NCBI GenBank assembly: GCA_029555885.1
Contig: JAKPQT010000722.1
Location: forward strand, 1-35,816
Source of the DNA: Chloroflexota bacterium
Lineage (GTDB): Bacteria; Chloroflexota; Anaerolineae; CG2-30-64-16
DNA length: 35,816 nucleotides
Reading direction: 5' to 3'
Below are positions 1,915-33,490 of this stretch, in pieces. Every line of letters starts with the position of its first letter. Within the stretch, counting starts at the first letter, position 1. The notes under the pieces are model-generated. The model was not told where the DNA came from. It saw nothing but the letters and a program-made list of their open reading frames with translations, and searched no databases. The translations under genes and the position numbers were made by a program.

Positions 1915-1944
1915 GGGTGTTGTGCTCCGAGGGTATGGCCTGGC

Positions 1945-3045: not shown

Positions 3046-3067
3046 GTGGAGGGGATACCTTACCGGC

Positions 3068-3700
3068 TCAGCCGAGCAGGCTCTTTGCCAGGCGGGTCGC
3101 CGAGCTGGCATCCGGGCTGTAGCCGTCTGCGCCGATCTGCTTGGCAAAGCTATCGGTGACCGGCGCGCCGCCGATCATGACCTTGACCTTGCCGCGCACG
3201 CCCGCTTCCTCCAGGGCCGCGATGGTGCCCTTCATGCTCGGCATGGTGGTCGTCAAGAGGGCGGACATGGCAACGACGCCGGGCTGGTGGTCGATGACCG
3301 CCTTGACGAACTTCTCAGGCGAGACATCGGTGCCGAGGTCAACGACCTCGAAGCCTGCACCTTCCAGCATCATGGCGACCAGGTTCTTGCCGATGTCGTG
3401 GAGGTCGCCCTTGACGGTGCCGATGACGACCTTGCCGGCGGATGTGGTGCCGGCTTCCGCGAGGTACGGCTTAAGGAGCGCAAGGCCGCCCTGCATGGCA
3501 CGCGCGGCAACCAGCATTTCCGGCACGAAGTACTCGTTCTCCTCAAACAAGCGGCCGACCTCGGCCATGGCGCCAATCAGACCATCCTTGAGGATCTTGT
3601 CTGCCGGAATGCCCTCCGTGAGCGCGGCCTCCACGCCGGCTTTTGCAGCGGGCGCGTTGCCGTCCAGTACCGCATTGTAGATGGTTTCGATGGTGGACAT
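3068..3700 (-). CDS. Corrinoid (cobalamin-binding) protein of a methyltransferase system
   Basis: This 210-residue protein has the two-domain build of MtaC/MtbC/MttC and the MetH B12 module. A helical cap (about 1-88) contains MAEVGRLFEENEYFVPEML. A Rossmann B12 domain follows, with the lower-ligand motif D99-L-H101-D-I-G104, the SALLTTTM strand-loop and the GGAPV loop that cradles the nucleotide tail. H101 is the expected cobalt ligand. The start is MSTIETI at 3700, with CAGGAG nine bases upstream. The longer frame from 3796 would run through the operator region. It is the first gene of a minus-strand operon with two URO-D proteins, as expected for a substrate:corrinoid methyl-transfer unit. 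A dedicated substrate methyltransferase of the MttB or MtaB type is not visible. Confidence 0.92.
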   Translation of the reverse strand: MSTIETIYNAVLDGNAPAAKAGVEAALTEGIPADKILKDGLIGAMAEVGRLFEENEYFVPEMLVAARAMQGGLALLKPYLAEAGTTSAGKVVIGTVKGDLHDIGKNLVAMMLEGAGFEVVDLGTDVSPEKFVKAVIDHQPGVVAMSALLTTTMPSMKGTIAALEEAGVRGKVKVMIGGAPVTDSFAKQIGADGYSPDASSATRLAKSLLG

Positions 3701-3779
3701 GTGGGTGTACTCCTGGTGTGTCTGAAGATGAGATTCGGACTCTCTGGTTAGCAAGTGGAACTGGCGTGGTGCAAGCACA

Positions 3780-3797
3780 AGTGTTATACGTAACACT
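3780..3797 (-). promoter_or_regulatory. Palindromic operator at the corrinoid operon start site
   Basis: AGTGTTA-TACG-TAACACT is a perfect 7-bp inverted repeat with a 4-bp spacer. It begins four bases downstream of the proposed -10 of the corrinoid operon, so it would cover the transcription start, a classic repressor position. The cognate regulator is not identifiable in the window. Confidence 0.55.
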
Positions 3798-9697: not shown

Positions 9698-9813
9698 CGC
9701 TTCTGCCTCCTCCATTCAGGTGCGAACCGGCATACCGGTTTATTGCCTGGCAGGTGTTAGTATCTGGTGATATGGCCTTGGCTGCGAGTGCGGAGTGCAG
9801 CATCCGCATTCTG

Positions 9814-9847
9814 CCTCTGGCAGGCGCCGTCCGGCGCCTGCCAGAGG
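9814..9847 (-). terminator. Perfect 15-bp hairpin after the Ig-like protein gene
   Basis: CCTCTGGCAGGCGCC (9814-9828) pairs perfectly with GGCGCCTGCCAGAGG (9833-9847) across a 4-base loop, GTCC. It lies 49 bases past the stop of the minus-strand Ig-like gene and before the next minus-strand gene. It is very stable but has no U-tract, so it is either an L-shaped or Rho-assisted terminator, or an mRNA 3' stabiliser. Confidence 0.65.
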
Positions 9848-9895
9848 GTGTTACTTCAGCTCACGCAGCCAGGCTGAGGGGCTGAGCCGGACGCG

Positions 9896-14187: not shown

Positions 14188-14420
14188 CGTCGGCCTTCTG
14201 TCCTGTGAGTACTTGTTCAGGTCCGCCAGAAGCGACTCGTCTGCTCAACCCGGTCGCCCGACTGTGTGCCAGGGGTACTCGCGCGCAGCAAACTTTCGGT
14301 TGCGCCAACGGTACCAGGGCCATCTGCAGTGAGACTATCACGCAGTACGTTCGGATTCAACCCCTAAAGGATGTATCGTGGCAGTTTATTTTTCCTTGTG
14401 GCCGGCTGTCACCACGATTG

Positions 14421-18913: not shown

Positions 18914-21049
18914 ATGACTGAAGCCACAGCTCCCTACCTGAACCCTGACCTGCCCGTCGAGCAGCGCGTGGATGACCTGATCGGCCGCATGACGTTGGCG
19001 GAGAAGCTGAGCCAGATGTGCAATGCCTGTCCGCCGATTCCCCGGCTGGGCATCCCGGCCTATGATTATTGGAGCGAGGCCCTGCACGGCGTGGCCCGCA
19101 ACGGCCGCGCCACCGTGTTCCCCCAGGCCATCGGCATGGCCGCGACATGGAATCCTGACCTGGTGCGGCGAGTGGCCTCGGCCATCGGCGACGAAGCGCG
19201 CGCCAAACATCACGAGGCGATGCGGCGCAACGGCGGGACGATGATCTACCAGGGCCTGACATTCTGGTCGCCCAACATCAATATCTTCCGCGATCCGCGC
19301 TGGGGCCGCGGGCAGGAGACGTGGGGCGAAGACCCCGTGCTGACGGGCGAGATGGGCGCCGCGTTCGTGCGGGGGCTGCAGGGCGACGACCCGCGCTATA
19401 TGAAGGCGGCGGCGTGCGCCAAGCACTACGCGGTCCACAGCGGGCCGGAGAAGCTGCGCCACACCTTCGACGCGGTCGTCTCGCAGCGCGACCTGTACGG
19501 GACGTATCTCCCTGCTTTCCGCAAGCTGGTGGTGGACGCGCAGGTGGAGGCCGTCATGGGCGCGTACAACCGCACGAACGGCGAAGCATGCTGCGCGAGC
19601 CAGACGTTGCTCGTGGACATCTTGCGCGGGGAGTGGGCCTTCCAGGGGCATGTCGTGTCCGACTGCGGCGCGATCAACGACATCCACCAGGGGCACAAGC
19701 TCACGGCGGACGCGGCCGAAAGCTCCGCGCTGGCGGTAAAGGCGGGCTGCGACAATGCCTGCATCTGCACATACGAGCACTTGGGCGAGGCGCTGGAGCG
19801 CGGGCTGCTGACCGAGGCGGACGTGGACCGCTCGTTGGCCCGCATGTATCGGACGCGCTTCAAGCTCGGCATGTTCGACCCGGCGGAGCGCGTGCCGTAT
19901 GCGAACATCCCCATGAGCATCGTGGGTTGCGAGGAACACCTCCAGCTGGCGCACGAGACCGCAGTGCAGTCCGTCGTATTGCTCAAGAACCGGAACAACA
20001 TCCTGCCCATCAAGCCGGATGCGAAGGTCATCACGGTCATCGGGCCGGCGGCCGCGAACCTCGACGTGCTGCTCGGCAACTATCATGGCATGAACACCGG
20101 CATGGTGACGCTGGTGGAGGGCATCGTCGCGCGTGCGCCGGAGGGCGTCAAGGTCGAGTACCGGCCCGGCTGCCAGTTCACACAGCCGAACGCGACCGCG
20201 CACGACTGGTCGACCTACATGGCTGCGGGCAGCGACGTGACGATTGCCTGCGTGGGCCTGTCGCCGCTCATGGAGGGCGAAGAGGGCGACGCAATCATGA
20301 CGCCGGAGAACGGCGACCGGACCGAGATCGAGATGCCCGAGGCACAGGCTGCGTACGTCAAGAAGCTGTGCCTGGCGGGCGCGAAGGTGGTGCTCGTCAT
20401 CACCGGCGGCGCGCCGGTTGCGCTGGGCGAGCTGGCGGACATGGTGGAAGGCGTCGTGTACGTGTGGTATCCGGGCCAGCTCGGCGGCGCAGCGGTGGCA
20501 AGCGTGCTGTTCGGTGACGTGGCGCCGTCCGGCAAGCTGCCGCTGACCTTCCCCAAGGCGACCGCAGACCTGCCGCCCTTCGAGGACTACAACATGGCGG
20601 GCCGCACCTATCGGTTTGCCACGGTCGAGCCGCTGTACCCGTTCGGCTTCGGACTCAGCTACACGACGTTCGCGTATGAGGGGCTGGCGCTGGACCACGC
20701 CACGATTCGCAGCGGCGAGAGCGTTAGCGCGACGGTTACAGTCAGGAACACGGGCTACCGGGCCGCAGATGAGGTCGTGCAACTCTACGTCGCGGACCTG
20801 GAGGCGTCAGTGCCGGTCCCGCAGCAAAGCCTGGCCGCGTTCCGCCGCATCCACCTCGCGTCGGGCGAGAGCCGGCAGGTGGTGTTCACGGTGACGCCGG
20901 ACATGCTGGAACTCGTCAACGACGAGGGCGCGCGCGTGCTGGAGCCAGGTGTCTTTCGGCTGACCGCGGGCGGCAGCTCGCCGAGCGCACGGGCGACCGC
21001 GCTGGGCGCGGCAGCACCTGCCGTTGCCGAACTGACCGTCACAGCCTGA
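18914..21049 (+). CDS. GH3 beta-xylosidase/beta-glucosidase-like enzyme
   Basis: This 711-residue protein has the full GH3 layout: an N-terminal TIM barrel (RMTLAEKLSQM, YDYWSEALHGVAR, NINIFRDPRWGRGQETWGEDP, the K-H pair at 170-171) with nucleophile D250 in VVSDCGAI, an alpha/beta sandwich with the candidate acid/base loop GLSPLMEGEEGD, and a C-terminal fibronectin-III-like domain (VTVRNTGYRAADEVVQLYV). VSDCGAI and the SEALHGVA block are typical of the beta-xylosidase branch. There is no signal peptide. AAGGAG lies nine bases before the ATG. With GH51 it would finish arabinoxylan oligosaccharides to free pentoses in the cytoplasm. Glucosidase or mixed arabinosidase activity cannot be excluded. 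Confidence 0.93.
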   Translation: MTEATAPYLNPDLPVEQRVDDLIGRMTLAEKLSQMCNACPPIPRLGIPAYDYWSEALHGVARNGRATVFPQAIGMAATWNPDLVRRVASAIGDEARAKHHEAMRRNGGTMIYQGLTFWSPNINIFRDPRWGRGQETWGEDPVLTGEMGAAFVRGLQGDDPRYMKAAACAKHYAVHSGPEKLRHTFDAVVSQRDLYGTYLPAFRKLVVDAQVEAVMGAYNRTNGEACCASQTLLVDILRGEWAFQGHVVSDCGAINDIHQGHKLTADAAESSALAVKAGCDNACICTYEHLGEALERGLLTEADVDRSLARMYRTRFKLGMFDPAERVPYANIPMSIVGCEEHLQLAHETAVQSVVLLKNRNNILPIKPDAKVITVIGPAAANLDVLLGNYHGMNTGMVTLVEGIVARAPEGVKVEYRPGCQFTQPNATAHDWSTYMAAGSDVTIACVGLSPLMEGEEGDAIMTPENGDRTEIEMPEAQAAYVKKLCLAGAKVVLVITGGAPVALGELADMVEGVVYVWYPGQLGGAAVASVLFGDVAPSGKLPLTFPKATADLPPFEDYNMAGRTYRFATVEPLYPFGFGLSYTTFAYEGLALDHATIRSGESVSATVTVRNTGYRAADEVVQLYVADLEASVPVPQQSLAAFRRIHLASGESRQVVFTVTPDMLELVNDEGARVLEPGVFRLTAGGSSPSARATALGAAAPAVAELTVTA

Positions 21050-21059
21050 CGATCTCGCC

Positions 21060-21100
21060 GGCCTGCCTGGGAGCATGTACGCCGCGCTTCCAGGCAGGCC
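21060..21100 (+). terminator. Hairpin between GH3 and transketolase genes
   Basis: GGCCTGCCTGG (21060-21070) pairs perfectly with CCAGGCAGGCC (21090-21100) across a 19-base loop, 10 bases after the GH3 stop. No T-run follows, so it may attenuate rather than end transcription into the transketolase genes, for which I see no separate strong promoter. Confidence 0.5.
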
Positions 21101-21148
21101 GCTACTCGACCCCTGGGTGCTTCCCACCACCATCGGAGACGCGGCCGC

Positions 21149-21991
21149 ATGACGTTAACAACCGACCTTGAACTCAGGCTGAAATCCATCGAGTACCGGC
21201 AGACCATCCTGCGTATCATCACGCAGGCGCGCGCGGGTCACACGGGCGGCGACCTGTCTGCCATCGACATCCTCAACGTTCTGTACAACGACAGCCTCAA
21301 CGTCAGTCCCGCCACGATGAGCCATCCTGACCGTGACCGTTTCGTGCAGAGCAAGGGGCACTGTGTCGAGGCACTTTATACGGTACTGGCGGACCGCGGG
21401 TTCTTTCCCGCAGAACAACTCGACACGCTCTGCCGCTACGGCTCGCCCTTCATCGGTCACCCGACCCGCAGCGTGCCCGGCATCGAGCACAACACCGGCG
21501 CGCTAGGTCACGGGCTGGCGGTCGCGGCGGGCATGGCACTGGCCGGGCGGCTGGACGGCCGCACGTATCGCGTGTTTGTGCTGATGGGCGATGGCGAGCT
21601 CGACGAGGGCTCCGTGTGGGAAGCCTCGCTGGCCGCGGTGCGTTACCGCCTCGATAATCTCACCGCCATCGTCGACCGGAACGGGCTGCAAATCACCGGG
21701 CCCACGGAGAAGGTCCTGCCGCTGGAGCCGCTGGCGGACAAGTTCCGTGCCTTCGGCTACGCCGTCGCTAAAGTGGACGGCCACGACGTGCGCGCACTGA
21801 GGGATCTGTTCCGTCGCGTGCCCCTTGAGCCGGGTCGGCCGACACTCATTCTTGCGCATACGATCAAGGGCAAGGGCGTCAGCTTCATCGAGCATGCCGC
21901 GAGCTGGCATCACCGGGTGCCCACCGATGTGGAGTACGCGGTGGCTTTGGCTGAGCTGGACCAGGCGCGCGCAGAGCTCCAGGGGAGTTGA
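21149..21991 (+). CDS. Transketolase, N-terminal (ThDP-binding) subunit
   Basis: This 280-residue protein corresponds to the first half of transketolase. It has the QARAGHTGGDLSAIDIL start, SKGHCVEALYTVLADRG, NTGALGHGLAVAAGMAL and the thiamine-diphosphate motif GDGELDEGSVWEA...N, followed by HTIKGKGVSF. Split transketolases of this type assemble with the C-terminal subunit, encoded here by the next gene one base away. The substrate in the pentose phosphate pathway is a ketose phosphate (two-carbon transfer). Its place between the GH3 enzyme and a sugar isomerase/kinase pair suggests it is dedicated to pentose use rather than being the only transketolase of the cell. The upstream ribosome site is weak (GGAGACGCGGCCGC). 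Confidence 0.93.
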   Translation: MTLTTDLELRLKSIEYRQTILRIITQARAGHTGGDLSAIDILNVLYNDSLNVSPATMSHPDRDRFVQSKGHCVEALYTVLADRGFFPAEQLDTLCRYGSPFIGHPTRSVPGIEHNTGALGHGLAVAAGMALAGRLDGRTYRVFVLMGDGELDEGSVWEASLAAVRYRLDNLTAIVDRNGLQITGPTEKVLPLEPLADKFRAFGYAVAKVDGHDVRALRDLFRRVPLEPGRPTLILAHTIKGKGVSFIEHAASWHHRVPTDVEYAVALAELDQARAELQGS

Positions 21992-21992
21992 T

Positions 21993-22931
21993 ATGGAGAC
22001 AGGCCGTCCTAACGTGGAAGTCTTTGCCGAGACGCTGCTGGAAGTCGCGCGGGAGGACCGCGATGTGCTGGTCGTGACCAGCGACTCACGCGGCTCCGGC
22101 AAGCTGGCTCCGTTCGCAGATGCGCTGCCGGGACAGCTCATCGAGGTCGGCATCGCGGAGCAGAACGTGGTCGGCATTGCCGCGGGTCTGGCCTCCGCCG
22201 GCAAGCGTGTGTTTGCCGTCTCGCCGGCCTGCTTCCTGACGGCCCGCGCCTTCGAGCAGATCAAGGTGGACGTCGCCTATTCTGATCAGCCGGTGCGCGT
22301 CATCGGCATCAGCGCGGGCGTCAGCTATGGCGCGCTGGGCGCCACCCATCATTCGCTGCATGACTATGCCGCGCTGCGGGCCGTGCACAACATCACAGTG
22401 GTCGCGCCCGCAGATAACTTCGAGACCCGCGAGACCATCCGGGCCATCCACCGGGCGGACCATCCTATCTATGTGCGCCTCGGCAAGGCGCCGCAGCCGC
22501 ACGTCCACCCGGCAGGCAGCCGTTTCATCCTCGGTCAGACTGCCCAACTTCGAGAGGGCCGCGACCTGACCTTCGTCGCATGCGGCGAGACCGTCGCGCC
22601 CGCCGTCGCCGCGGCAGACCTCCTGGTCGCGGGGGGCATTTCCTGTCGCGTCCTGAGCATGCATACGCTCAAGCCGCTCGACGCTGCGGCTGTGCTGGCG
22701 GCCGCGGTGGAGACACGCGCGATCATCACCGTCGAGGAGCACAGCGCGCACGGCGGGCTGGGCGAGGCGTGCGCGGCAGTCTTGCTGCAGGCCGGCGCGT
22801 GCGTGCCTTTCCGGATTGTGGGCTTCCCGGATGAGTACATGGTCACCGGATCGCAGGCCGACATCTTCCAGCATTACGGCATCTCGCCCGCGGGACTCGC
22901 GGCAACGGCTCGCGCGCTGCTGTCCCGCTGA
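21993..22931 (+). CDS. Transketolase, C-terminal (pyrimidine-binding) subunit
   Basis: This 312-residue protein matches the second half of transketolase. It carries the catalytic Glu in VGIAEQNVVGIAAGLA, the pyrimidine-binding domain (FAVSPACFLTARAFEQIKVDVAYSD), THHSLHDYAALRAV and the C-terminal domain (ISCRVLSMHTLKPLDAAAV, VEEHSAHGGLGEA). I start it at ATG 21993 because GGGAG lies about six bases upstream and the ATG is one base beyond the N-subunit stop. The in-frame sequence further upstream belongs to that subunit in another frame. Both subunits are full length and intact. The related 1-deoxyxylulose-5-phosphate synthase is less likely, because that enzyme is normally a single longer chain. 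Confidence 0.92.
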   Translation: METGRPNVEVFAETLLEVAREDRDVLVVTSDSRGSGKLAPFADALPGQLIEVGIAEQNVVGIAAGLASAGKRVFAVSPACFLTARAFEQIKVDVAYSDQPVRVIGISAGVSYGALGATHHSLHDYAALRAVHNITVVAPADNFETRETIRAIHRADHPIYVRLGKAPQPHVHPAGSRFILGQTAQLREGRDLTFVACGETVAPAVAAADLLVAGGISCRVLSMHTLKPLDAAAVLAAAVETRAIITVEEHSAHGGLGEACAAVLLQAGACVPFRIVGFPDEYMVTGSQADIFQHYGISPAGLAATARALLSR

Positions 22932-22951
22932 GGGCAAACTCTGGAGGCATC

Positions 22952-24385
22952 ATGGCACAGAAGCAGGCCGTCCTGGGCGTCATCATCGGCAACCGGGACT
23001 TCTTCCCCGACCGGCTCATCACGACTGCGCGGCAGACTCTGCTGGATGTCTTCGCAGCCCTCGATATCGAGCCGGTCATTCTGGACGAGAGCACCACCAA
23101 GCTCGGCGCAGTGGAGACCTGGAGCGATGCGCGCAAGTGCGCGGCGCTGTTCGACGAGCACCGCCACCGCATCGACGGCATCCTCATCAGCCTGCCCAAC
23201 TTCGGCGACGAGAAGGCCGCGGTGGAGGCCATCAAACTATCGGGCCTGCAGGTCCCCATCCTGGTACAGGCGTTCCCGGATGCCCTCGATGCCTTGACGC
23301 CGGAGTTTCGCCGCGATGCCTTCTGCGGGAAGATCTCCGTCTGCAATAACCTCTACCAGTACGGCTATCCCTATTCAGTGACGGAGCAGCACACGCTGCG
23401 GCCCGATACGGAGGATTTCCGGAACGAGCTGCGTAAGTTCGTGGGGGTCTGTCGCGTGGTCAACGGTCTGAAGCGCGCGCGCTTGGGTGCGGTCGGCGCG
23501 CGGCCCAACGCGTTCAACACGACGCGCTACAGCGAGAAACTCTTGCAGGCGCACGGCATCAGTGTCCAGACGGTCGACCTGTCCGAAATCCTGGGTGCGG
23601 TGGGCAAGCTGGCTGATGACGATGCGCGGGTGATCGAGCGGCTGGGGCGGCTGCGCGGGTATGTCAACACCGCGGGGGTGCCCTCCCCCTCCCTGGTGCG
23701 CATGGCGAAGTTCGCCATCGTGCTGGAGGACTGGATGCAGTCGCTGGACATCCAGGCATCGGCCCTGCAATGCTGGAATTCGCTGCAGCAGAACCTCGGC
23801 GCGAATGTCTGCACGGTCATGAGCATGATGAGCGAGCAGCTCATGCCGAGCGCGTGCGAGGTGGATGTAACCGGCGTTGTGTCCATGTATGCGCTGCAGC
23901 TGGCCTCCGGCACGCCGAGTGCGCTCGTCGACTGGAACAACAACTATGCCGACGATCGGGACAAGTGCGTGTTGTTCCATTGCGGCAACTGGGCCCGCAG
24001 CTTCTACGGCGACGAGTTCAACATGGAGTATGCCCCGATCCTGGGCTCGACCCTCGGCAACGAGAATACCTACGGCGTCGTCGCCGGCCGCGTGCCCGCG
24101 GGGCCGTTCAGCTTTGCGCGCGTCAGCAGCGATGACCGGCACGGCCGCATGCAGGCGTACGTGGGCGACGGGGAGTTCGTGGACGACCCACTGGACACCT
24201 TCGGGAGCCGCGCGGTGGTGCGGGTGCCGCGGCTGCAGGCGCTGATGCGGCACATCTGCAAGCACGGCTTCGAGCACCACGCCGCGATGAACCGTTCGCA
24301 CGCGGCCGCAGTGCTGCACGAGGCATTCACGACCTACTTCGGCTGGGAGGTGTACTATCACGGCAGGCCAGATGATGGCTGTTAG
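22952..24385 (+). CDS. L-fucose/L-arabinose isomerase-fold sugar isomerase
   Basis: This 477-residue protein has the three-part fold of the FucI/AraA superfamily: an N-terminal Rossmann-like domain (VLGVIIGNRDFFP...DGILISLPNFGDEKA), a middle domain (GAVGARPNAFNTTRYSEKLL) and a C-terminal barrel with metal-ligand candidates E303 (ACEVDVTG), D327 (LVDWNNNY) and H343 (LFHCGNW). The reaction class is aldose-ketose isomerisation using Mn2+ or similar. It is shorter than E. coli FucI (about 590) and diverges from AraA. It sits between transketolase and an FGGY kinase, and overlaps the kinase start. I infer that it is the pentose isomerase of this locus (D-xylose, L-arabinose or D-arabinose). L-fucose itself is less likely, as no aldolase is present. 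Confidence 0.85.
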   Translation: MAQKQAVLGVIIGNRDFFPDRLITTARQTLLDVFAALDIEPVILDESTTKLGAVETWSDARKCAALFDEHRHRIDGILISLPNFGDEKAAVEAIKLSGLQVPILVQAFPDALDALTPEFRRDAFCGKISVCNNLYQYGYPYSVTEQHTLRPDTEDFRNELRKFVGVCRVVNGLKRARLGAVGARPNAFNTTRYSEKLLQAHGISVQTVDLSEILGAVGKLADDDARVIERLGRLRGYVNTAGVPSPSLVRMAKFAIVLEDWMQSLDIQASALQCWNSLQQNLGANVCTVMSMMSEQLMPSACEVDVTGVVSMYALQLASGTPSALVDWNNNYADDRDKCVLFHCGNWARSFYGDEFNMEYAPILGSTLGNENTYGVVAGRVPAGPFSFARVSSDDRHGRMQAYVGDGEFVDDPLDTFGSRAVVRVPRLQALMRHICKHGFEHHAAMNRSHAAAVLHEAFTTYFGWEVYYHGRPDDGC

Positions 24386-25859
24386 GCAAGGCGGCGCGCG
24401 CTTCATCCTCGCGATTGACGAGGGCACGACAAACGTCAAGGTCATGCTGGTGGATCGCGCCGGCCGCGTCGTGGCAGAGGCCGCGCGGCCCCTGTCTATC
24501 GCCTATCCGCAGCCCGCGTGGGTCGAACAGGACGCACTCGAGATCTGGCGCACGTCGCACGCGGTCGCCGCGCAGGTGCTGGCCACCGCACCGGCAGGGC
24601 AGGTAGTGGCCCTGGCACTCACCAATCAGCGGGAGTCGGTGCTGGCCTGGGACCGGGGCACCGGCGAGCCGCTCGGCCCCTGTGTCTCGTGGCAGTGTCA
24701 TCGCACCGCGCCGTTTTGCGCACAACTCAAAGAGCAGGGCCTGGCCGACACCATCTACGCCCGTACGGGGCTGGCTGTGGATCCCATGTTCTCCGGCAGC
24801 AAGGCGCGCTGGCTGCTGGAGCACATCCCCGAGGGCGCGGCACGCGCGGCAGACGGCGACATTTGCCTGGGGACCGTGGACGCGTGGCTGCTGTGGAACT
24901 TCACCGGCGGCGCGATGCATGCCTGCGATGTCACTAACGCCTCGCGCACGCAGCTCTTCAACCTCGACACTTTGGATTGGGATGACGACCTGCTGCGTGT
25001 ATTCGGTATCCCGCGGCCCGCGCTGCCGGAGGTTCGTCTGTCGAGCGCCTACTATGGCGAGACGTGCGGGTTGCCCGGCGTTCCGGCGGGGCTGCCCATT
25101 GCGACGCTGATCGGGGATTCCCATGCCGCGCTGTTTGGACATGCCGGGTTCAGGCCCGGCTCGGTCAAGGCGACCTACGGGACCGGCTCATCGCTGATGA
25201 CGCCTACCGCCGCGCGGGTTGTCTCACGCAACGGGCTTTCGTCAAGCATCGCGTGGGGCCACCGGCAGGTGACCTATGCGCTCGAAGGCAATATCTACGT
25301 GACGGGCTCCGCAGTGCAGTGGGTCGCGGACCTGCTGGGGGTGGACGGCCCGGCAGCCGCGGAGGCGTTGGCGGCTCAGGTCGCTGACAATGGCGGCGCG
25401 TACTTCGTGCCGGCTCTGGCAGGTCTCGGCGCGCCGTACTGGAACGAGGCCGCGCGCGGGCTGGTTACCGGCCTGACCCGCGGCACGACCCGCGCCCACC
25501 TGGCCCGCGCGACGCTGGAGTCGATCGCGTACCAAATTCGCGATGTATTCGACGTGATGCAGGCCGAGGCGGGCGCGCCGTTGCAGGTACTCCTGGCGGA
25601 CGGCGGCGCGACCCGCAACCGGGCGCTGATGCAGTTCCAGGCGGACATCCTCGGCGTCCCGCTGCTGTCCAGCGCCGCGGGCGATGTGTCGGCGCTCGGT
25701 GCAGCGTATCTGGCCGGGCTGACGGTAGGGCTCTGGGATTCCGAAGCGGAGATTGCCGCACTCGAACGGCCGCAGGTACGCTATGAGCCGGCCATGGCCC
25801 AGGCCCGCCGTGATGCGCTCTACGCCGGCTGGCAGGCAGCGGTTAGGCGCGCGCTCTAA
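24372..25859 (+). CDS. FGGY carbohydrate kinase, glycerol-kinase-like, substrate uncertain
   Basis: This 495-residue protein is closest in style to glycerol kinase: AIDEGTTNVKVMLVD phosphate loop, W-V-E-Q-D, TNQRESVLAWD, TYGTGSSLM, YALEGNIYVTG, GLGAPYWNEAARG, DGGATRNRALMQFQADI and ALGAAYLAGLTVG. Two substrate-pocket positions differ from true glycerol kinases: DPYFS reads DPMFS, and GDQQAALFG reads GDSHAALFG. The NQRE pair that holds glycerol is kept. The start (ATG-ATG at 24372/24375) overlaps the isomerase end by 11-14 bases, so translation is coupled. In this operon a pentulokinase (xylulose or ribulose) is the natural guess. Plain glycerol kinase stays possible. No glycerol transporter or glpD gene is nearby. 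Confidence 0.85.
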   Translation: MMAVRQGGARFILAIDEGTTNVKVMLVDRAGRVVAEAARPLSIAYPQPAWVEQDALEIWRTSHAVAAQVLATAPAGQVVALALTNQRESVLAWDRGTGEPLGPCVSWQCHRTAPFCAQLKEQGLADTIYARTGLAVDPMFSGSKARWLLEHIPEGAARAADGDICLGTVDAWLLWNFTGGAMHACDVTNASRTQLFNLDTLDWDDDLLRVFGIPRPALPEVRLSSAYYGETCGLPGVPAGLPIATLIGDSHAALFGHAGFRPGSVKATYGTGSSLMTPTAARVVSRNGLSSSIAWGHRQVTYALEGNIYVTGSAVQWVADLLGVDGPAAAEALAAQVADNGGAYFVPALAGLGAPYWNEAARGLVTGLTRGTTRAHLARATLESIAYQIRDVFDVMQAEAGAPLQVLLADGGATRNRALMQFQADILGVPLLSSAAGDVSALGAAYLAGLTVGLWDSEAEIAALERPQVRYEPAMAQARRDALYAGWQAAVRRAL

Positions 25860-25978: not shown

Positions 25979-26851
25979 TCAGACAGTCGTCTGATCTGCA
26001 AGTCCTGCGTCCCGCCAGACCTGGTGCAGTGCCTCTGCCGTGGTGCGGACGGCATCCTCCGGCGACATCTCCTTCAGCCGCGGGCTGAACGGCTCCACCA
26101 TGACCGGGCCGCTGTAACTGAGGCGGGCGAGCGCCTGCAGGAATCCCCGCAGGTCGATCACCCCGGTTTCGCCCGGCAGCGCCCGGTGCGTGTCCGGCAG
26201 CTCGTCCAGCGGGATGCCGGGCAGTGCGTCGTTCACATGCACATCCACGATATCCGCATCGCGCAGCCGCGCCAGTTGGTCTAGGGTGCCGCCCGCGGTA
26301 TACCAGTGGTAGGCGTCCAGCAGGAGGCCCATATTGTGTGTGCCGGCGGCCTGCTCGATATCGCGGCACAGGGCCAACATGCCGTCTAATGTATGAACGA
26401 ACTCGTACCGGTGGTTGTTGCGCAGCGTCTTGGGCCCGAGGAACTCCAGACCGAAGCGGATGCCGTGTGTGTCTAGGATGTGCGCGGCACGGCTGAATCG
26501 GTCCACATGGAAGGCGTAGTTGGCACTAAAGTCCAGGCTGTCATGCCAGCTTGGCACCCAGGTGGTCGTGCGTGTGACCCCGATGGCGGCCGCGACGATG
26601 CAGAGGTTCTCCAGTTCCGCCAGACCCTCGCTGAATTCGGCCTCCGGCTTGCGATAGTCGAGCGGAAAGCCGAATCCGCCTGCCTGCACGCCGGCATGGG
26701 TCAGCAGGTCGCGGGTCTGCGTCGCGCCGAGGGCCGCAGCCTCCCGGATGTTGATGTGTAGCGCGTCGAATCCGTTGGCCGCGGCGAGACCAGCGGTCAC
26801 TGCGAGCTCGGCCCGGACGCCGATCGCTGCCGGTGACAGAGACTTGAACAT
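25979..26851 (-). CDS. Xylose-isomerase-like TIM-barrel sugar epimerase/isomerase
   Basis: This 290-residue protein belongs to the AP-endonuclease-2/xylose-isomerase-like TIM-barrel group (IolE, IolH, hydroxypyruvate isomerase, tagatose epimerase relatives). The expected metal ligands are visible: Glu in FGLEFLGP, Asp in LLDAYHWY, His in DVHVNDA and Glu in VMVEPFSP. Start 26851 is supported by AGGAG ten bases upstream; the in-frame extension to 26953 passes through an inverted repeat. It is the last gene of the minus-strand glycyl-radical cluster, 119 bases after a URO-D gene. The substrate cannot be told from the sequence; a sugar, sugar acid or inositol derivative is typical. Confidence 0.85.
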   Translation of the reverse strand: MFKSLSPAAIGVRAELAVTAGLAAANGFDALHINIREAAALGATQTRDLLTHAGVQAGGFGFPLDYRKPEAEFSEGLAELENLCIVAAAIGVTRTTTWVPSWHDSLDFSANYAFHVDRFSRAAHILDTHGIRFGLEFLGPKTLRNNHRYEFVHTLDGMLALCRDIEQAAGTHNMGLLLDAYHWYTAGGTLDQLARLRDADIVDVHVNDALPGIPLDELPDTHRALPGETGVIDLRGFLQALARLSYSGPVMVEPFSPRLKEMSPEDAVRTTAEALHQVWRDAGLADQTTV

Positions 26852-26883
26852 GGGGAGCTCCTTTGTTAACAATGGCTGAATGG

Positions 26884-26978
26884 AACGCTGATGTCGCTGA
26901 TGGTTATGATTGACGCTGATCCTTTCCATTCTGAGTGGGAAATCCGCGTTCATCTTGACCTTCAGCGTTATCAGCGTT
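26884..26978. repeat. 95-bp element with 17-bp inverted ends
   Basis: Left end 26884-26900 and right end 26962-26978 match as inverted repeats at 15 of 17 positions (AACGCTGATxxCGCTGA). Inside are further CGCTGAT direct copies. The right end supplies the last codons and TGA of the URO-D gene at 26971. The look is that of a MITE or REP-type insertion. Confidence 0.55.
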
Positions 26979-27954
26979 GTATCATGCCTGCCCTCTCACA
27001 GATCGCGGCGTACGCCCAGTCGTCCCACTCCTCGCGCACCCCGATGCCGGGCAGGTCGGGATAGTTCTTGCAGATCAGCCCGCCCTCGAAGACGTCGATC
27101 ATGTGCCGCGCGCCCGACTCGATAAGCTGCCGGTCGCCCGTAGGGAGTATCTTCTGAATGTCCACCGGGCTCCACAAAGCAGCCTTCCGTTCGCTCAGGA
27201 GGGCCGCCAGTTTGGGCATGTCGTACAGCGCGGGCTGGTCGAACTGGAAAACATCCACTCCTGCATCCAGCAGATCGGGGACGATGGCCCAGTTCTGCCC
27301 GCAGGAGTGCATGAACACGCGCATCCCGTACTCGTGCGCAATGCTTATCAGTCGTGTATACATTTCCTTGAAATAGAAACGGAACATCTTCGGGCTGAAG
27401 AGCAGGCCCGTCTGTGTGCCCATGTCTTCTCCAATGACGATGCCATCTGCGCCCGCGCGACCGGCCAGGTGGATTTTCTGTTCGTAAACGCCCGCCACGA
27501 CCTCATGCATTCGGCACACTTCGTCGGGGTAAAGGGCCATGTCTGCGAAATACACCTCCATCTTGCGGAGGTAGCGGGCATTATCGAACACCCAACCGCC
27601 GATGCTTGCCAGCTTGAATTTGTCGGTCGGCTGGCTGAACAGCGCGTTCATCGCGGCCGCGCAGTCGGGATGCGTGTAATCGGGGGGCCGCAGGTCGGGG
27701 AGCTGACGCCAATCGGTGATGGCGGGGCGGAAGATCTCGCCTTTGATGGCTCCCTCCTTCATGCGCACCCACAGGTTGCCCCATTCGTCGTCATAGTATT
27801 CAAGTTTGCCTTCGGTCCAACGACGTTGGGTGTACCCATGTGGCCTGAGGCCGGCCGACAGCGTGTCGTTGATGCGGCCGCGGTCGAAGGTCATGCCGGG
27901 ACGCGGCGCGCCGGTGTGCTCGATGTTGGCGATAATGATGTCACGCGAGTTCAT
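26971..27954 (-). CDS. URO-D superfamily protein with intact His-X-Cys site
   Basis: This 327-residue protein has the URO-D barrel and, alone among the five paralogues here, the MtaA/MtbA-type zinc motif H216-S-C218-G with a later Cys at 295 (GGLICKNYP). It is therefore the best candidate for a true corrinoid methyltransferase. Other family marks are GADGIVIGEDMGTQTGLLFSPKMFR and AGVDVFQFDQPALYD. Start 27954 (MNSRDIII) follows GGGGAG with ten bases spacing; a TTG at 27972 is in frame but would sit on that ribosome site. It lies 18 bases after another URO-D gene and downstream of the glycyl radical enzyme. The last codons lie in a short inverted-repeat element. Confidence 0.87.
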   Translation of the reverse strand: MNSRDIIIANIEHTGAPRPGMTFDRGRINDTLSAGLRPHGYTQRRWTEGKLEYYDDEWGNLWVRMKEGAIKGEIFRPAITDWRQLPDLRPPDYTHPDCAAAMNALFSQPTDKFKLASIGGWVFDNARYLRKMEVYFADMALYPDEVCRMHEVVAGVYEQKIHLAGRAGADGIVIGEDMGTQTGLLFSPKMFRFYFKEMYTRLISIAHEYGMRVFMHSCGQNWAIVPDLLDAGVDVFQFDQPALYDMPKLAALLSERKAALWSPVDIQKILPTGDRQLIESGARHMIDVFEGGLICKNYPDLPGIGVREEWDDWAYAAICERAGMIQR

Positions 27955-27972
27955 TGGCGTATTGCTCCCCAA

Positions 27973-29241
27973 TTACCACAAGTCATTGATGAGGTCGCGC
28001 GTGATCTGCACTGCTCGGCCTGGCTTGGACCGGTCGCCGTTGAGCGTATAGATGTCGCGGAAGATGATCTCAGTCGCGCAGCCGCGCGCCGCTGTCAGGG
28101 TCTTGCGGATGTGCGCGGCGAAGCCCTCTTCGTCGAACTCCGTGCCGACGCCGACGAAGTTGGGACTAGGCTTGCGCGAGTAGATGACGCCGCTGCCGCG
28201 CAGCGCCTCGCCCATGTAATCCTCGTTGCACCACGCGGAGATGGAGACCTTCCGTAGGTGCGGCAGCTTGCTCACGTACTTCTCCCATATGTCGTGCACC
28301 GGCTCGCAGCAGCCGTAGTAGGTGAGGCCGAACGGCTCGGCGATTTCGCAATAGTAAGGATAGACATAGCGCCCATACATGCGCGGTGAGATGCTCACCG
28401 TCTCCTGCGAGTTGATGTTCAGCCACAGGTCCGCAGTTGTCACGTGGCCGGTGCGATAGTAGTTGTCGGTTGGCAGTTCGTGTGTAAAACCATAGCTGCC
28501 CGCGCCTGCATAATCGTTGCCATTGTTCAGCGTGAGCAGACCCTCGCGCTCCTGCCACTTCGCAAAGCCCAGGATGCTATCACGAAGGTAGGCGAACAGC
28601 GCGTGCATCGCGTCCGGTTCGTCGATCATGGCGATCATCATCGCTTCCAGACCCATGAGCTGAACGATCTTGGCGCAGGGTGTGGCGTGCCAGCGCAGGC
28701 TGGCGTTCTTGATTTCGACCGGCAGGACATCGCCCAGGATATCTTCCACGAACGATTTCCAGGTGAAGGTGGCTTCCCGGTCCACGGAAAAGGTTGCCGG
28801 TTTGAGCCGTTGGAAGTCCTCTCGGAGGTTCCGGATAGGATGCTGCCAATGGTAGCCCACGGTGCGTCCACTGGCATCGACGCCGTGCTCTGTCGGAATC
28901 TCGATGCCGAACTCATCGATATCGATGTCCCAGTATACGGTGTAGGTCGCAGGGACGACCTTGTCATCGCCAATCTCCTCGTAGTTGACGATGTGCCTCA
29001 GGAGGTTGCGTTCGATCTGGATGGCCGCCGGGGAGGTGCAGCGTGGAGTCGGCAGCATGTCGCCCTCGAATGTATCCATCTCCATGACGATGAGCGGACG
29101 TTCTCCCTGGAGCGCGTTGTGGCGGTACCAGAGTGCGGTCCGTTCGGCCATAATGGGGTGGTTCGCATAGTCGAGCTGGCGTTTGGCGAGCTCGCGAAGG
29201 TAGTGTCGCTCTTCAGGCATGATGCGTGAGGGTGTTGGCAT
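27973..29241 (-). CDS. Divergent URO-D superfamily protein (long form)
   Basis: This 422-residue protein is longer than typical URO-D homologues (about 340-370). The fold is suggested by MIDEPDAMHALFAYLRDSILGF, TVSISPRMYGRYVYPYYCEIAEPFGLTYYGCCEP and a late CNEDYMGEALRG-type loop. The usual His-containing metal motif is replaced by Y-G-C-C-E-P (309-314), a double Cys. The C-terminal 'ATEIIFRDIYTLNGDRSKPGRAV' stretch replaces the standard Cys loop. No good ribosome site is seen (GGGAC before 29241; none before M8). It lies between the glycyl radical enzyme and another URO-D gene. I infer a methyltransferase-like or other metal-dependent role, but the function is not known to me. Confidence 0.8.
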   Translation of the reverse strand: MPTPSRIMPEERHYLRELAKRQLDYANHPIMAERTALWYRHNALQGERPLIVMEMDTFEGDMLPTPRCTSPAAIQIERNLLRHIVNYEEIGDDKVVPATYTVYWDIDIDEFGIEIPTEHGVDASGRTVGYHWQHPIRNLREDFQRLKPATFSVDREATFTWKSFVEDILGDVLPVEIKNASLRWHATPCAKIVQLMGLEAMMIAMIDEPDAMHALFAYLRDSILGFAKWQEREGLLTLNNGNDYAGAGSYGFTHELPTDNYYRTGHVTTADLWLNINSQETVSISPRMYGRYVYPYYCEIAEPFGLTYYGCCEPVHDIWEKYVSKLPHLRKVSISAWCNEDYMGEALRGSGVIYSRKPSPNFVGVGTEFDEEGFAAHIRKTLTAARGCATEIIFRDIYTLNGDRSKPGRAVQITRDLINDLW

Positions 29242-29309
29242 GGCGGTTAAGTCCCTATTTGGGTATTGCTATGACGCCGGAAACGCGCGGTCGCGATCTG
29301 GCAAGGTGG

Positions 29310-31526
29310 CTACAGCTCGTGCTCGGTCCGCGCGATGACTTCTTCCTGCATCTGCGGCGTCAGTTTTACGAAATAGTCCGAGTAGCCGGCAACCCGGACG
29401 AGCAGGTCCTGGTAGTGCTCCGGATGCGCGCGAGCGGCGAGCAGCGTGTCGCGGCTGACCACATTGACTTGCATCTCGAAGCCGCCGCGCTGCAGGTAGG
29501 TTTCGATAAGCTGGCGCATCGCGGCCCGGTCAGCCTCGGACTTGAACAGGTTGGCAGAGAACTTGGCGTTGTGAACGAGACCGCCAAGCGCATTTCGGTG
29601 TGACCAGCAGGTCGTCGAGAGAACCGATGCGGTGGGGCCGCGACGCTCCCGACCCTGCGCAGCCCCTGCACCGTCTGCCAGCGGCCATCCCGCGCGGCGG
29701 CCATCGGGCGTTGCACCGGTCTGCGCGCCCATGCGCTCGTGCATGATCCAACAGAAGAAGCCGGGCACGTAGCTGTGCGGCCCGATCATGTTTGAAGCGG
29801 TCGTCGCCATCAGCCACTTTGCCCAGCGCTGCGCGATCTCGTCAGATGCCTCGTCGTCATTGCCATATTTGGGGAGACGGTTGAGGATGCGCTGGCGGAG
29901 CTGCTCGTGGCCCTCAAAGTCCGCCTGCAGGATGGCCGCCAGCTCCGCCACGGTCAGTTCGCGCGTCTCGTACACCAGGTGCCTTACCGCGAGCAGGCTG
30001 TCCGCCAGATTGGCAAGTCCGACAAGCGAGTTCTCCACCCAATTGTAGCGTGCGCCGCCGCGGTCGTAATCGAGCCCGCGGGCGAGGCAGTCGTTGGTGA
30101 AGCAACTGACCAGCGGGAAGCCGCCATGCACCGTGCGGGCCCGCCAGATGCGGTCCAGATCGGCGGCCGCCTGCGCAATCTGCTCGCGCAGGTTCGCCTG
30201 GACACGTGCCTCAAGCTCCTCGTACGTTGCAGGCTCGGGCTCTGCGCCGCCGGCGACCGCGTCGATCACCGTGTTGAGTGCTCCGGGCAGGTTGAAGTAG
30301 GGTGTGGCGACCCAGACGTTGGATGCGGCCACCGGCTTGATCTCGACGCAGGTGGAGTTCATGTAGTTGACGGAATCCGCAAAGTTGACGCCGTGCTCCA
30401 TCAGCCCCGCGCTGATCTCCTCGTCGTTGAAGAATGCCGGGTCCCCGCGGCCTGCGCCGAGCAATGCTACTGCAAAGTCCATCAACTCCGACGGCGTGCC
30501 GCGGTGCCAGCACAGGCCCACGGTCGGGTAGCCTAGGCCCGTTGCGATGCGCGCGGCCATGCAGAGGTAGGTCAGGTCGTTGGTGATATCCCGGCCCTCT
30601 CCATCGCGACCGCCCACCAGGACGGCAAGCGCTAAGCCGGTAGACATAATGCGATTGACGTTGATGTAGAGCTGGCAGATGAGCTCGAACGCCGCCTGCC
30701 TGGTGATGCGTCCGGCTGCGAGGTCGGCCTCGTAGAACGGGCGCAAGGTGCGGTCGAGCCGGCCGGGGGAGGTGAGGTAATGGTCTTCGCCCTGCCACAG
30801 CGCCACGATGGTCAGGAAGAGGAGCTGGATGGCCTCGTGGAAGGTGCGGGGGGCCGCATGGCTGACCTGGCGGCAAACCGCGGCCATTTCCAACCAGCGC
30901 AGCGATGCCTCACTCATATCTGCGGCCTGAGCCGAGCACGCGTCCGCGACGTTGAGGATATACGCCGACATGCCGTCCAGCGCAATCCGGCAGGCGGCAT
31001 AGAAGGCTGCTTTCTCTGCATCTTCCGCGGCCGTGGCCGCAGTTGCGGCCCCTCGTTCGGCAATCTCGGCTTTTACGCCATCCAGCCCGACCGCAAACAG
31101 CTTGTCGAAATCCGGATGCAGGTGGCCCGCGTCGCCTCCGGGGAAAGGGGGCATGGAGGCCAGCACAGCGCGGGCGGCTTCGAGCGCGGGGCCTTCGGCT
31201 TCAGTGGGCCGGCGGAAGCGAGGACGGCCAACGATCCGCTCGCCGGGATCTAGCTCCACGGGCAACGCTGCCAGTCTGGCCGCAACCATGCGCGCCCGCC
31301 AGACCAGCCAGTGTTCAGCGGACGTATGAAGCTGCCAGGCCGCTGCATCGCTGAGCAGCAGCTCCGGTATAGGTGGCATATCGGTTCCGGTGCGCGTGTG
31401 GAAGGCCAGCGCCGCCTCGCGCAGCGCGGCAAGATCCGCTGGCAGGTGCAAGTCGATCGGCTGTTGCGCGCCGGGAATCGTCAGGTATCGGGACAGTACC
31501 GGCACGGATGCCGCAGTTGGCTGCAT
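29310..31526 (-). CDS. Glycyl radical enzyme of the PFL/diol-dehydratase superfamily, substrate unknown
   Basis: This 738-residue protein has both signatures of the family. The thiyl Cys is C393 in NSTCVEIKP. The C-terminal radical loop is LLVRVAG714YSDYFVKLTPQ, with G714 24 residues from the end, as is normal. E395, two residues after the Cys (C-V-E), is typical of dehydratases and lyases (glycerol/diol dehydratase, choline lyase), while pyruvate formate-lyase has Cys-Cys. TPDGRRAGWPLADG and NVVSRDTLL are further family blocks. The residue before the Cys is Thr, where the lyases I recall have Gly. GGAGG lies just before the ATG. It lies between a TIM-barrel isomerase and two URO-D genes. No radical-SAM activating enzyme is seen in the window. 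It implies an anaerobic lifestyle. Confidence 0.93.
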   Translation of the reverse strand: MQPTAASVPVLSRYLTIPGAQQPIDLHLPADLAALREAALAFHTRTGTDMPPIPELLLSDAAAWQLHTSAEHWLVWRARMVAARLAALPVELDPGERIVGRPRFRRPTEAEGPALEAARAVLASMPPFPGGDAGHLHPDFDKLFAVGLDGVKAEIAERGAATAATAAEDAEKAAFYAACRIALDGMSAYILNVADACSAQAADMSEASLRWLEMAAVCRQVSHAAPRTFHEAIQLLFLTIVALWQGEDHYLTSPGRLDRTLRPFYEADLAAGRITRQAAFELICQLYINVNRIMSTGLALAVLVGGRDGEGRDITNDLTYLCMAARIATGLGYPTVGLCWHRGTPSELMDFAVALLGAGRGDPAFFNDEEISAGLMEHGVNFADSVNYMNSTCVEIKPVAASNVWVATPYFNLPGALNTVIDAVAGGAEPEPATYEELEARVQANLREQIAQAAADLDRIWRARTVHGGFPLVSCFTNDCLARGLDYDRGGARYNWVENSLVGLANLADSLLAVRHLVYETRELTVAELAAILQADFEGHEQLRQRILNRLPKYGNDDEASDEIAQRWAKWLMATTASNMIGPHSYVPGFFCWIMHERMGAQTGATPDGRRAGWPLADGAGAAQGRERRGPTASVLSTTCWSHRNALGGLVHNAKFSANLFKSEADRAAMRQLIETYLQRGGFEMQVNVVSRDTLLAARAHPEHYQDLLVRVAGYSDYFVKLTPQMQEEVIARTEHEL

Positions 31527-31606
31527 GGCGCTTCCTCCATTTTGTTGCGCGGACAGTTACGAATATCGCGCGGGCTTACAAAAAAAATGATGCTACAGCA
31601 CTGGTG

Positions 31607-32413
31607 TCATGCACACGCGGCCTCAGCCTCGTAGGTACGCATCGTCGCCAGCTCGCGGGGCAGATGAATTGCGTAAGGCTCCCAGTCGATCCATTCGCCG
31701 CTCAGATAGCCGTTGTAGCCCGCAGCCAGGAGCAACTGCACGGCACGGCGATGATCGATCGCGCCTGTGCCCGCTGGCCGGAGTTGCAGCTCACCTGCAA
31801 CGTCAACCCCATCATGGAAGTGGACGTGGCGGATCCAGGGCTTCAGGGCATGGTAGGCGCTATCCATCGTCGAGCCGCTCTGGCGGACGGGATGCATGAT
31901 GTCCCAGTTGACCGCAACCGCGGGATGGTTGGCGCGGTGCATCACGGCCGCGACGTGCGCAGGGTCGGTCCAGTCGTCGTGGGTCTCCAGACACAGGGTG
32001 ATGCCTGCGGCAGCCGCCTCATCGGCCAGAGCCGCGAGACTCCCGGCCAGGACCTCGACCGCCGCATTGCGGCCGAGGCCAGGGACCAGTGCGCCCCCGA
32101 ATACCCGCAGCCGGGCGCAGCCCACATCCGCGGCCAGCGCAATCGCACGCCGCACCGCGTCGATGTTTTCCGCTGCCGTCGCCGGATCGGCCAGCCGCGC
32201 GCCGGTCGCCAGACAGCAGAGCGCGATGCCGCTGTCCTCGACCTGCCGGCGCGCTACGCGCCGCACGGCTGAATCAATCGTGGTTTCAATGCCGTGGCCG
32301 TGGCCCGAACTTAGCCGCGGCTCGATCCCATTGTAGCCCAACCGCTGCGCGAGCGCCAGCATTTCTTTCAGGGTCAAGTCAGGGCAGGAGAAGCTCATAA
32401 ACGCATATTTCAT
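31607..32413 (-). CDS. Xylose-isomerase-like TIM-barrel sugar epimerase/isomerase
   Basis: This 268-residue protein starts MKYAFMSFSCPDLTLKEMLALAQRLGYNGIEPR, a common opening for this family. Its metal-ligand candidates are Glu in CLETHDDW, Asp in NWDIMHP, His in HVHFHDG and Glu in SGEWIDWEPY. AAAGG lies about eight bases before the ATG at 32413; the longer frame would run into the divergent URO-D gene's control region. It is the first gene of the five-gene minus-strand cluster with the glycyl radical enzyme 80 bases downstream, so it may prepare the substrate of that enzyme. It is a paralogue of the TIM-barrel protein at the other end of the cluster. Confidence 0.87.
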   Translation of the reverse strand: MKYAFMSFSCPDLTLKEMLALAQRLGYNGIEPRLSSGHGHGIETTIDSAVRRVARRQVEDSGIALCCLATGARLADPATAAENIDAVRRAIALAADVGCARLRVFGGALVPGLGRNAAVEVLAGSLAALADEAAAAGITLCLETHDDWTDPAHVAAVMHRANHPAVAVNWDIMHPVRQSGSTMDSAYHALKPWIRHVHFHDGVDVAGELQLRPAGTGAIDHRRAVQLLLAAGYNGYLSGEWIDWEPYAIHLPRELATMRTYEAEAACA

Positions 32414-32485
32414 CGTACTGACCTTTCTGCTACAATGTATGCCTACGCGATGGGCTACATCTGGTAAACTTTCAGGAGACAAGAC

Positions 32486-33490
32486 ATGAACTCACGCGAG
32501 CGTGTATTGGCCGCCCTGCGCCGCGAGCGACCGGACCGCATTCCTCACTGCGAGTTGGGAATCGACCGGGCGCTGGCCGTGCAGTTGATGGGCTGGGGCC
32601 CGCCGACGGATCAGGCGGCCAGCCTCGAAAGCCAACCCTACACAGTCGAGGAGGCCAAGGCGCTCTCGACCTTCCTCAGTCTCGACAACATCTACTACGT
32701 CCTGCGCGCCCCGGTCCTGGCGCAGAAGATCCCCGGCCAGGACGGCCGCCTGTTCTACGGCGAGGGCCTGCTGCACACGGAGGCGGACCTCCACCTGCTG
32801 CAACTGCCCGACCCGCATGATGCTGCATTGTACGCTGACGCGGCCGCGTTTGCCAGGGAGAAGGGCGACTTCGCCGCCTGGTTCGTCACGCGCATGGGCA
32901 TCTTCTCGGTTATGCTCGGCATGGGCACGGAGGCGTTCAGCATTGCGCTGTACGAGAACCGGCCGCTCATCGAAACCATCCTCGACTATTATGTGGATTG
33001 GACCTGCGCGCTGGCCGATCATGCCGCGGCGCTCGGCTTCGACGTCTTCGTAACCACGGACGACATGGCGTTCAAGTCCACGACCTTCTTCTCGCCCAAG
33101 GTCTTTCGGGAACTGGTGCTGCCGCGCTATCACCGGCTCGCCAGGCACGTCACGCTGCCCTGGGTGCTGCACAGCGACGGCAACATGCTACCCTTCCTCG
33201 ACGATCTCGTCAACGTCGGCATTGCCGGTTTTCACCCGGTGGAGAAGGGCGCGATGGATATCCGGCAGGTCAAGCGGGATTACGGCGACCGCATATGCCT
33301 GTTGGGCAACGTGGACCTGAACCTCCTGGGCTTGGGCACGCCGGAGGAGGTAGATGCCGAGGTGCGCGGCCTCATCGAGGATGTCGGGCCCGCGGGCTAC
33401 ATCCTGACGAGCGGCAACAGCCTCGCCGGGTATCTCAAGCCGGAGTGCGTCATCGCGAAGAGCGAGGCTGTCCGGAAGTACGGAAGCTGA
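32486..33490 (+). CDS. URO-D superfamily protein lacking the Cys zinc ligands
   Basis: This 334-residue protein opens MNSRERVLAALRRERPDRIPHCELG and has typical MFSPKVFRE-like and GNVDLNLLGLGTPEEV blocks. In place of His-X-Cys it has HSDGN (229-233), and at the late Cys loop TSGNSLA (308-314) has no Cys. AGGAGACAAGAC precedes the ATG. It is divergent from the TIM-barrel/glycyl-radical operon, with only 72 bases between the two starts, so the control region is shared. A TACAAT at 32431-32436 could be its -10, but no good -35 is seen. A role in methyl transfer or another decarboxylase-like reaction cannot be separated. HemE itself seems unlikely from sequence style. Confidence 0.87.
   Translation: MNSRERVLAALRRERPDRIPHCELGIDRALAVQLMGWGPPTDQAASLESQPYTVEEAKALSTFLSLDNIYYVLRAPVLAQKIPGQDGRLFYGEGLLHTEADLHLLQLPDPHDAALYADAAAFAREKGDFAAWFVTRMGIFSVMLGMGTEAFSIALYENRPLIETILDYYVDWTCALADHAAALGFDVFVTTDDMAFKSTTFFSPKVFRELVLPRYHRLARHVTLPWVLHSDGNMLPFLDDLVNVGIAGFHPVEKGAMDIRQVKRDYGDRICLLGNVDLNLLGLGTPEEVDAEVRGLIEDVGPAGYILTSGNSLAGYLKPECVIAKSEAVRKYGS

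Follow-up and report, generated by a model that had tools for sequence, protein, structure and literature searches.

A glycyl radical enzyme outside the classes tested, encoded among URO-D-fold and TIM-barrel genes in a Chloroflexota contig

The stretch of DNA analysed here, called the window, comprises 35,816 nt of contig JAKPQT010000722.1 (assembly GCA_029555885.1) from a Chloroflexota bacterium (Anaerolineae, CG2-30-64-16). It carries a cluster of six genes at 25979..33490, five on the minus strand and the divergent UROD_C gene on the plus strand (Table 1). The subject of this study is the glycyl radical enzyme (GRE) of this cluster, which probably helps to break down an unusual sugar, together with its URO-D-fold and TIM-barrel neighbours. 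An initial annotation, made from the letters of the DNA, had read the same six genes at the same positions, and all of them proved to be real; its interpretation was partly supported.

Table 1. Features of the window, with open reading frames (ORFs) given by position; L001 is the locus of Chloroflexi bacterium ADurb.Bin325
Feature	Positions	Strand	Characteristics
TIM1, xylose-isomerase-like TIM barrel	25979..26953	-	PF01261 4.2e-26; 286-aa homologue in L001; true start perhaps near 26851
UROD_A, URO-D family	26971..27972	-	333 aa; PF01208 2.7e-12; H222-S-C224-G motif
UROD_B, URO-D-fold protein	27973..29241	-	422 aa; no Pfam match
GRE	29310..31526	-	738 aa; C393-V-E395 at 30342-30350; G714 at 29385-29387
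TIM2, xylose-isomerase-like TIM barrel	31607..32482	-	PF01261 5e-31; true start perhaps near 32413
UROD_C, divergent URO-D family	32486..33490	+	PF01208 4.9e-26; H-S-D-G in place of H-x-C-G
Corrinoid (B12-binding) protein	3068..3796	-	PF02607 and PF02310
ORF	1945-3147	-	No Pfam family at cut-off; Y-H-L-D-G motif; URO-D-like by eye
URO-D gene	853-1914	-
ORF	2-856	-
Sugar gene set	18914-25859	+	GH3, split transketolase, fucose-isomerase-like protein, FGGY kinase
Bacterial Ig-like/SdrD-like proteins, then response-regulator and MalT/LuxR-type proteins	8510-12607 and 13522-17101

The glycyl radical enzyme and its clade

The 738-residue protein is confidently taken to be a genuine GRE on the basis of its sequence and predicted model, since it has the PFL-like and Gly_radical domains, the radical glycine loop, the active-site cysteine and the GRE fold. 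The active-site Cys and Glu and the radical Gly are strictly conserved, and the clade homologues, found across phyla, are at least 52% identical to the window enzyme. The enzyme fits the eliminase (dehydratase/lyase) type, as initially proposed from the intact C393-V-E395 and G714.

The initial doubt about a known substrate class was borne out, and the NCBIfam scores, solved structures, diol-site alignment and tree all place the enzyme outside the classes tested. It could still be a drifted glycerol/propanediol dehydratase, choline lyase, or hydroxyproline or sulfopropanediol dehydratase, given that the diol dehydratases are the nearest solved structures, but this is quite improbable. The enzyme falls far under the cut-off of all 10 NCBIfam equivalog models matched, two of which are for GrcA cofactors (298 bits where CutC requires 1050, 312 where HypD requires 1100 and 311 where HpsG requires 1000). 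No cut-off was reached for CutC, HypD, HpsG/HpfG, 4-hydroxyphenylacetate and indoleacetate decarboxylase or pyruvate formate-lyase. Identity to the listed solved GRE structures does not exceed 30%, with 28-30% to the B12-independent glycerol/1,2-propanediol dehydratases (1r8w, 5i2g). In the alignment, which was read by eye, Asn156, Ser282, Tyr339 and Asp447 of glycerol dehydratase (GDH) correspond to Pro127, Leu251, Ala299 and Ala407 of the window enzyme (Asn156 lies just beyond the printed alignment and its match was counted back), and His281 corresponds to Tyr250, which His249 adjoins. Among the six residues that we take to be diol-binding (these five and His164), only His164, the window His135, is plainly retained, which argues against membership of the dehydratases. 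Moreover, the window enzyme has 12 residues fewer than GDH ahead of the VGG strand.

YbiW and PflD, with structures containing 1,5-anhydro-sugar 6-phosphates, are 26-29% identical to the window enzyme, and the Escherichia coli proteins fall outside its clade. Each of their genes adjoins an annotated activase gene, unlike the window gene. CutC choline trimethylamine-lyase shares the fold and the C-V-E motif; however, it also lies outside the clade.

The maximum-likelihood tree was built from 38 rows, namely the window enzyme, 12 of the 20 loci of group A, seven of group B, four of a further class, six others and eight references. The HypD and CutC references were chosen by NCBIfam cut-off, and two CutC-like rows lie under it. 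The clade of the window enzyme, called group A, comprises 13 rows with support of 100/100 and includes none of the named references (HypD, CutC, E. coli YbiW, PflD and PflB). Groups A and B are joined at 100/100, and group B itself does not resolve as one clade; the forks among the other GRE classes have weak support, and PflB sits on a long branch. Among 298 genomes drawn from the class of the nearest relative, identity falls from 43-88% for the matches in groups A and B to at most 38% beyond them. Membership of a clade outside every class tested is thus firmly indicated by the sequence and model comparisons.

Group A was found on genome contigs from Chloroflexota, Planctomycetota, Armatimonadota, Poribacteria, Lentisphaerota, Omnitrophota, a Gemmatimonadaceae bin and others, so that this strongly conserved clade spans several mostly uncultivated phyla. 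In the 31 genomes searched, the number of Gly_radical matches per genome is 2-24, and a scan of viral contigs found no relatives. In the open-access literature, with subscription journals not covered, no paper on the clade was found by title or abstract, and the searches turned up no reaction assigned to it. Characterised GRE classes have generally each opened an anaerobic pathway.

Another GRE class, separate in the tree (support 100/100) and marked by a G-G-C-T-E motif, directly adjoins group A in three loci and group B in one (L004:3-2144, L007:6649-9627, L010:7624-9921 and L023:11034-13244), which suggests paired radical enzymes. Other GREs adjoining activases (L061:6298-8550 and L062:5774-8026) have the cysteine motif G-C-H-W, without Glu two residues on.

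Concerning activation, the initial annotation was right that no activase lies in the window, but its view that this is unusual did not hold. Within the stretches examined, with varying room on the flanks, an activase was found in one of the 20 group A loci (L017, adjoining the GRE) and in six of the 11 group B loci (L021, L022, L023, L024, L026 and L028; the one in L026 is 7 kb away). The activase model TIGR02494 scored above threshold in 29 of the 31 genomes searched. Taken together, the two counts suggest that activation by a distant gene is likely the normal state in group A, as far as sequences can tell. In the nearest relative (G001) the single activase over the cut-off is on another contig than the GRE and adjoins a different GRE, which shares 26-28% identity with the window protein. 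An inactive or idle product for want of a matching activase would agree with the 19 group A loci in which none was found; nevertheless, this is very improbable, and the strict conservation of C, E and G, the activases elsewhere in relatives' genomes and the directly adjoining one in L017 argue against it.

Partner genes in related genomes

Close homologues of TIM2 and UROD_B were found with the GRE in two of the 20 group A loci. In L001 (GRE 87% identical) the order is UROD_C, TIM2, GRE, UROD_B and TIM1, as in the window, with UROD_C (91%) in the same place and UROD_A absent. In L002 (GRE 68%) the order is Gfo/Idh, TIM2, UROD_B and GRE. TIM2 and UROD_B also recur in L096, which contains Gfo/Idh, TIM2 (61%), another PF01261 protein, UROD_A (81%) and UROD_B (72%), and whose contig stops 198 bases past UROD_B; the genome's best GRE reaches only 37% identity to the window enzyme. 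The identification of the extra PF01261 protein as TIM1 was unsupported (BLASTP E 0.62). Furthermore, the longest contig listed for the database GRE P0006 measures 112,958 bases, as does the one listed for the UROD_B homologue P0127 (76%), which hints at one more instance of the pair.

These data firmly point to a conserved local partnership of the GRE with TIM2 and the URO-D-fold family, at the level of sequences and models. The initial proposal that the genes form a unit therefore stands in that operon-like partners recur in close relatives. It does not extend beyond a few Chloroflexota, and conservation throughout the clade was ruled out, the closest members alone retaining the neighbourhood. 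UROD_B at 70% identity or more is present in two of the 31 GRE genomes.

Both TIM proteins score well above the PF01261 cut-off of 31.1 (92.6 bits for TIM1 and 108.7 bits for TIM2) and below threshold for all NCBIfam models listed for either. UROD_B has no Pfam or NCBIfam family match, its predicted model shows the URO-D fold, and its family has more than 2000 homologues. In UROD_A, H222, S223, C224 and G225 are retained in five of five aligned proteins. A later Cys (in LICKNY) is present in only two of the five, and the protein was rejected as a canonical H-x-C...C zinc methyltransferase.

A possible sugar pathway and its alternatives

The GRE is likely an eliminase of sugar catabolism. Genes next to other group A members encode Gfo/Idh proteins (L027, L006), a 2-hydroxyacid dehydrogenase (L005), an NAD epimerase (L009), a GH2 protein (L016) and a PF01261 protein (L019). 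We tentatively favour, with less than even confidence, a reading in which the whole cluster is part of an anaerobic sugar-catabolic pathway, with an eliminase-type GRE at its core, conversion by the TIM-barrel proteins and methyl removal by the URO-D-fold proteins. The glycyl radical would be installed by a radical SAM activase whose gene lies elsewhere in the genome, Cys393 would abstract a hydrogen next to a hydroxyl, and Glu395 would assist elimination of the leaving group, water or another. The substrate could be a carbohydrate-derived polyol, sugar acid or anhydro sugar, and TIM1 and TIM2, with the Gfo/Idh/MocA oxidoreductase of the relatives, may convert the substrate or product by isomerisation and redox steps. 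The URO-D-fold proteins would most likely be substrate methyltransferases, passing O-methyl groups from the sugar to a corrinoid protein.

The methyl step is the weakest part of the proposal, and coupling of the GRE to corrinoid-dependent O-methyl removal is possible. Some UroD-superfamily proteins are corrinoid methyltransferases, and the published members comprise the O-demethylases MtvB, OdmB, VdmB and MtoB, the chloromethane enzyme CdmB and clades without an assigned substrate (PMC13222342). Compared with these proteins and the Methanosarcina mazei methyltransferase 4ay8, UROD_B differs in having no Pfam match, and UROD_A carries H-x-C-G, whereas UROD_C and the URO-D protein 853-1914 carry H-x-D-G, with Asp aligned in place of Cys. 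In genome G003 (L122:133-8870) a corrinoid methyltransferase set is made up of a pterin-binding and a corrinoid protein, URO-D, an MFS transporter and the corrinoid reactivase RACo, and a UROD_B paralogue (39%) is near it, with an opposite-strand channel gene in between. In the nearest relative (L102:6877-13070) a 40% paralogue of UROD_B lies among Gfo/Idh, alpha-L-fucosidase and two URO-D-like proteins, of which Pfam identified one and BLAST the other. Among 85 of the 101 listed neighbours of UROD_B paralogues, URO-D was the commonest family (8), followed at 3 each by PF01261, Gfo/Idh and a regulator domain. Moreover, the group B enzyme of L026 (47%) is amid four URO-D-like genes and an activase, RACo is present in all eight Chloroflexota genomes searched versus one of 14 controls, and L001 carries a 92% homologue of the window corrinoid protein some 4 kb away from its cluster. 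The window corrinoid protein is a possible methyl carrier, its tie to the cluster being suggested by the L001 sequence only.

Several points weigh against the pathway as a whole. The remaining 18 of the 20 group A loci, 10 of them with at least 5 kb on both sides, gave only weak matches (23-28%) to the TIM and URO-D neighbours, which indicates that the core reaction need not involve them. URO-D proximity is weak evidence because 13 Chloroflexota genomes hold 28-70 PF01208 matches each, far above the needs of haem synthesis alone. This density predicts 0.10-0.33 URO-D per locus, or about two of 12 loci with one, and at least one was found in four of 12 GRE loci, an unconvincing excess tallied by hand from BLAST against the window URO-Ds, possibly an undercount and affected by URO-D genes clustering among themselves. 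Generic proximity was thus largely rejected as evidence, and the initial idea that the URO-D proteins handle methyl groups survives as a lead, through the UroD-superfamily methyltransferases and the L122 paralogue. In the window, 22 kb separate the corrinoid protein gene from the cluster, and one operon holding the cluster and the corrinoid module 1-3796 was unsupported. PF02607 is found in all eight Chloroflexota genomes, yet it says little because it is also in nine of 14 controls, and no pterin-binding methyltransferase or RACo was found in the subset of window ORFs scanned. Regarding the sugar context, the commonest families around 19 group A loci (Gfo/Idh 6, NAD epimerase 6, short-chain dehydrogenases 5 and PF01261 4, among 95 of the 116 listed neighbours) are counts without a genome-background comparison, and the gene choice around these G+C-rich loci was approximate. 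Four of 10 neighbours scanned are not sugar-type (peptidase/esterase-like, CoaBC-like and two weak matches), and the two upstream neighbours scanned in L003 are a c-di-AMP receptor and a Na/Ca exchanger. The activase search in the source species was confined to the window.

The GRE could also be a sugar-linked eliminase by itself, with the URO-D and TIM-barrel genes as unrelated neighbours from very large paralogue families. We consider this somewhat unlikely, though the URO-D density, the 18 loci without close neighbour homologues and L003, which is nested in the Chloroflexota part of the clade and has none of the neighbours within 10 kb on each side, speak for it. It is opposed by the TIM2 and UROD_B homologues (62-88%) beside the GRE in L001 and L002, in differing orders, and by the recurrence of TIM2, UROD_A and UROD_B together in L096. 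Another explanation, which appears improbable, is that the GRE itself cleaves a methoxy or other group from a methylated or substituted sugar in a CutC-like manner, the URO-D proteins processing the methanol or methyl compound. Its structural closeness to CutC and the URO-D and corrinoid genes of the window and L001 would agree with this, but no methanol-specific methyltransferase was found among the window proteins scanned and such neighbours are absent from most clade loci.

A narrower form of the favoured sugar-catabolic pathway, which we regard as doubtful, is that O-methylated sugars from plant or algal glycans are broken down by a strictly anaerobic pathway. In it, UroD-superfamily proteins would transfer the methyl groups to a corrinoid protein, the sugar would be reworked by PF01261 and Gfo/Idh proteins, and a new class of GRE eliminase would complete its cleavage. 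If true, the corrinoid link would give anaerobes a way to use O-methylated sugars, and the many URO-D proteins per genome could cover a range of methyl-ether (or similar) specificities. A search of the open-access literature on corrinoid methyl transfer from O-methylated sugars in anaerobes listed no paper.

Other genes of the window

The corrinoid gene belongs to a minus-strand row at 1-3796, with the URO-D gene and the two ORFs of Table 1. No close orthologue of ORF 1945-3147 was found in the genome of the nearest relative (34% at best). The plus-strand sugar gene set may represent a pentose or branched-sugar route, and its fucose-isomerase-like protein has a distant resemblance to sulfoquinovose isomerase. 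In L001 the stretch between TIM1 and GH3 is without transketolase, fucose-isomerase-like or FGGY kinase genes. The genes from the Ig-like to the MalT/LuxR-type proteins sit between the corrinoid genes and an arabinofuranosidase in the window; in L001 the corrinoid gene comes directly after the arabinofuranosidase.
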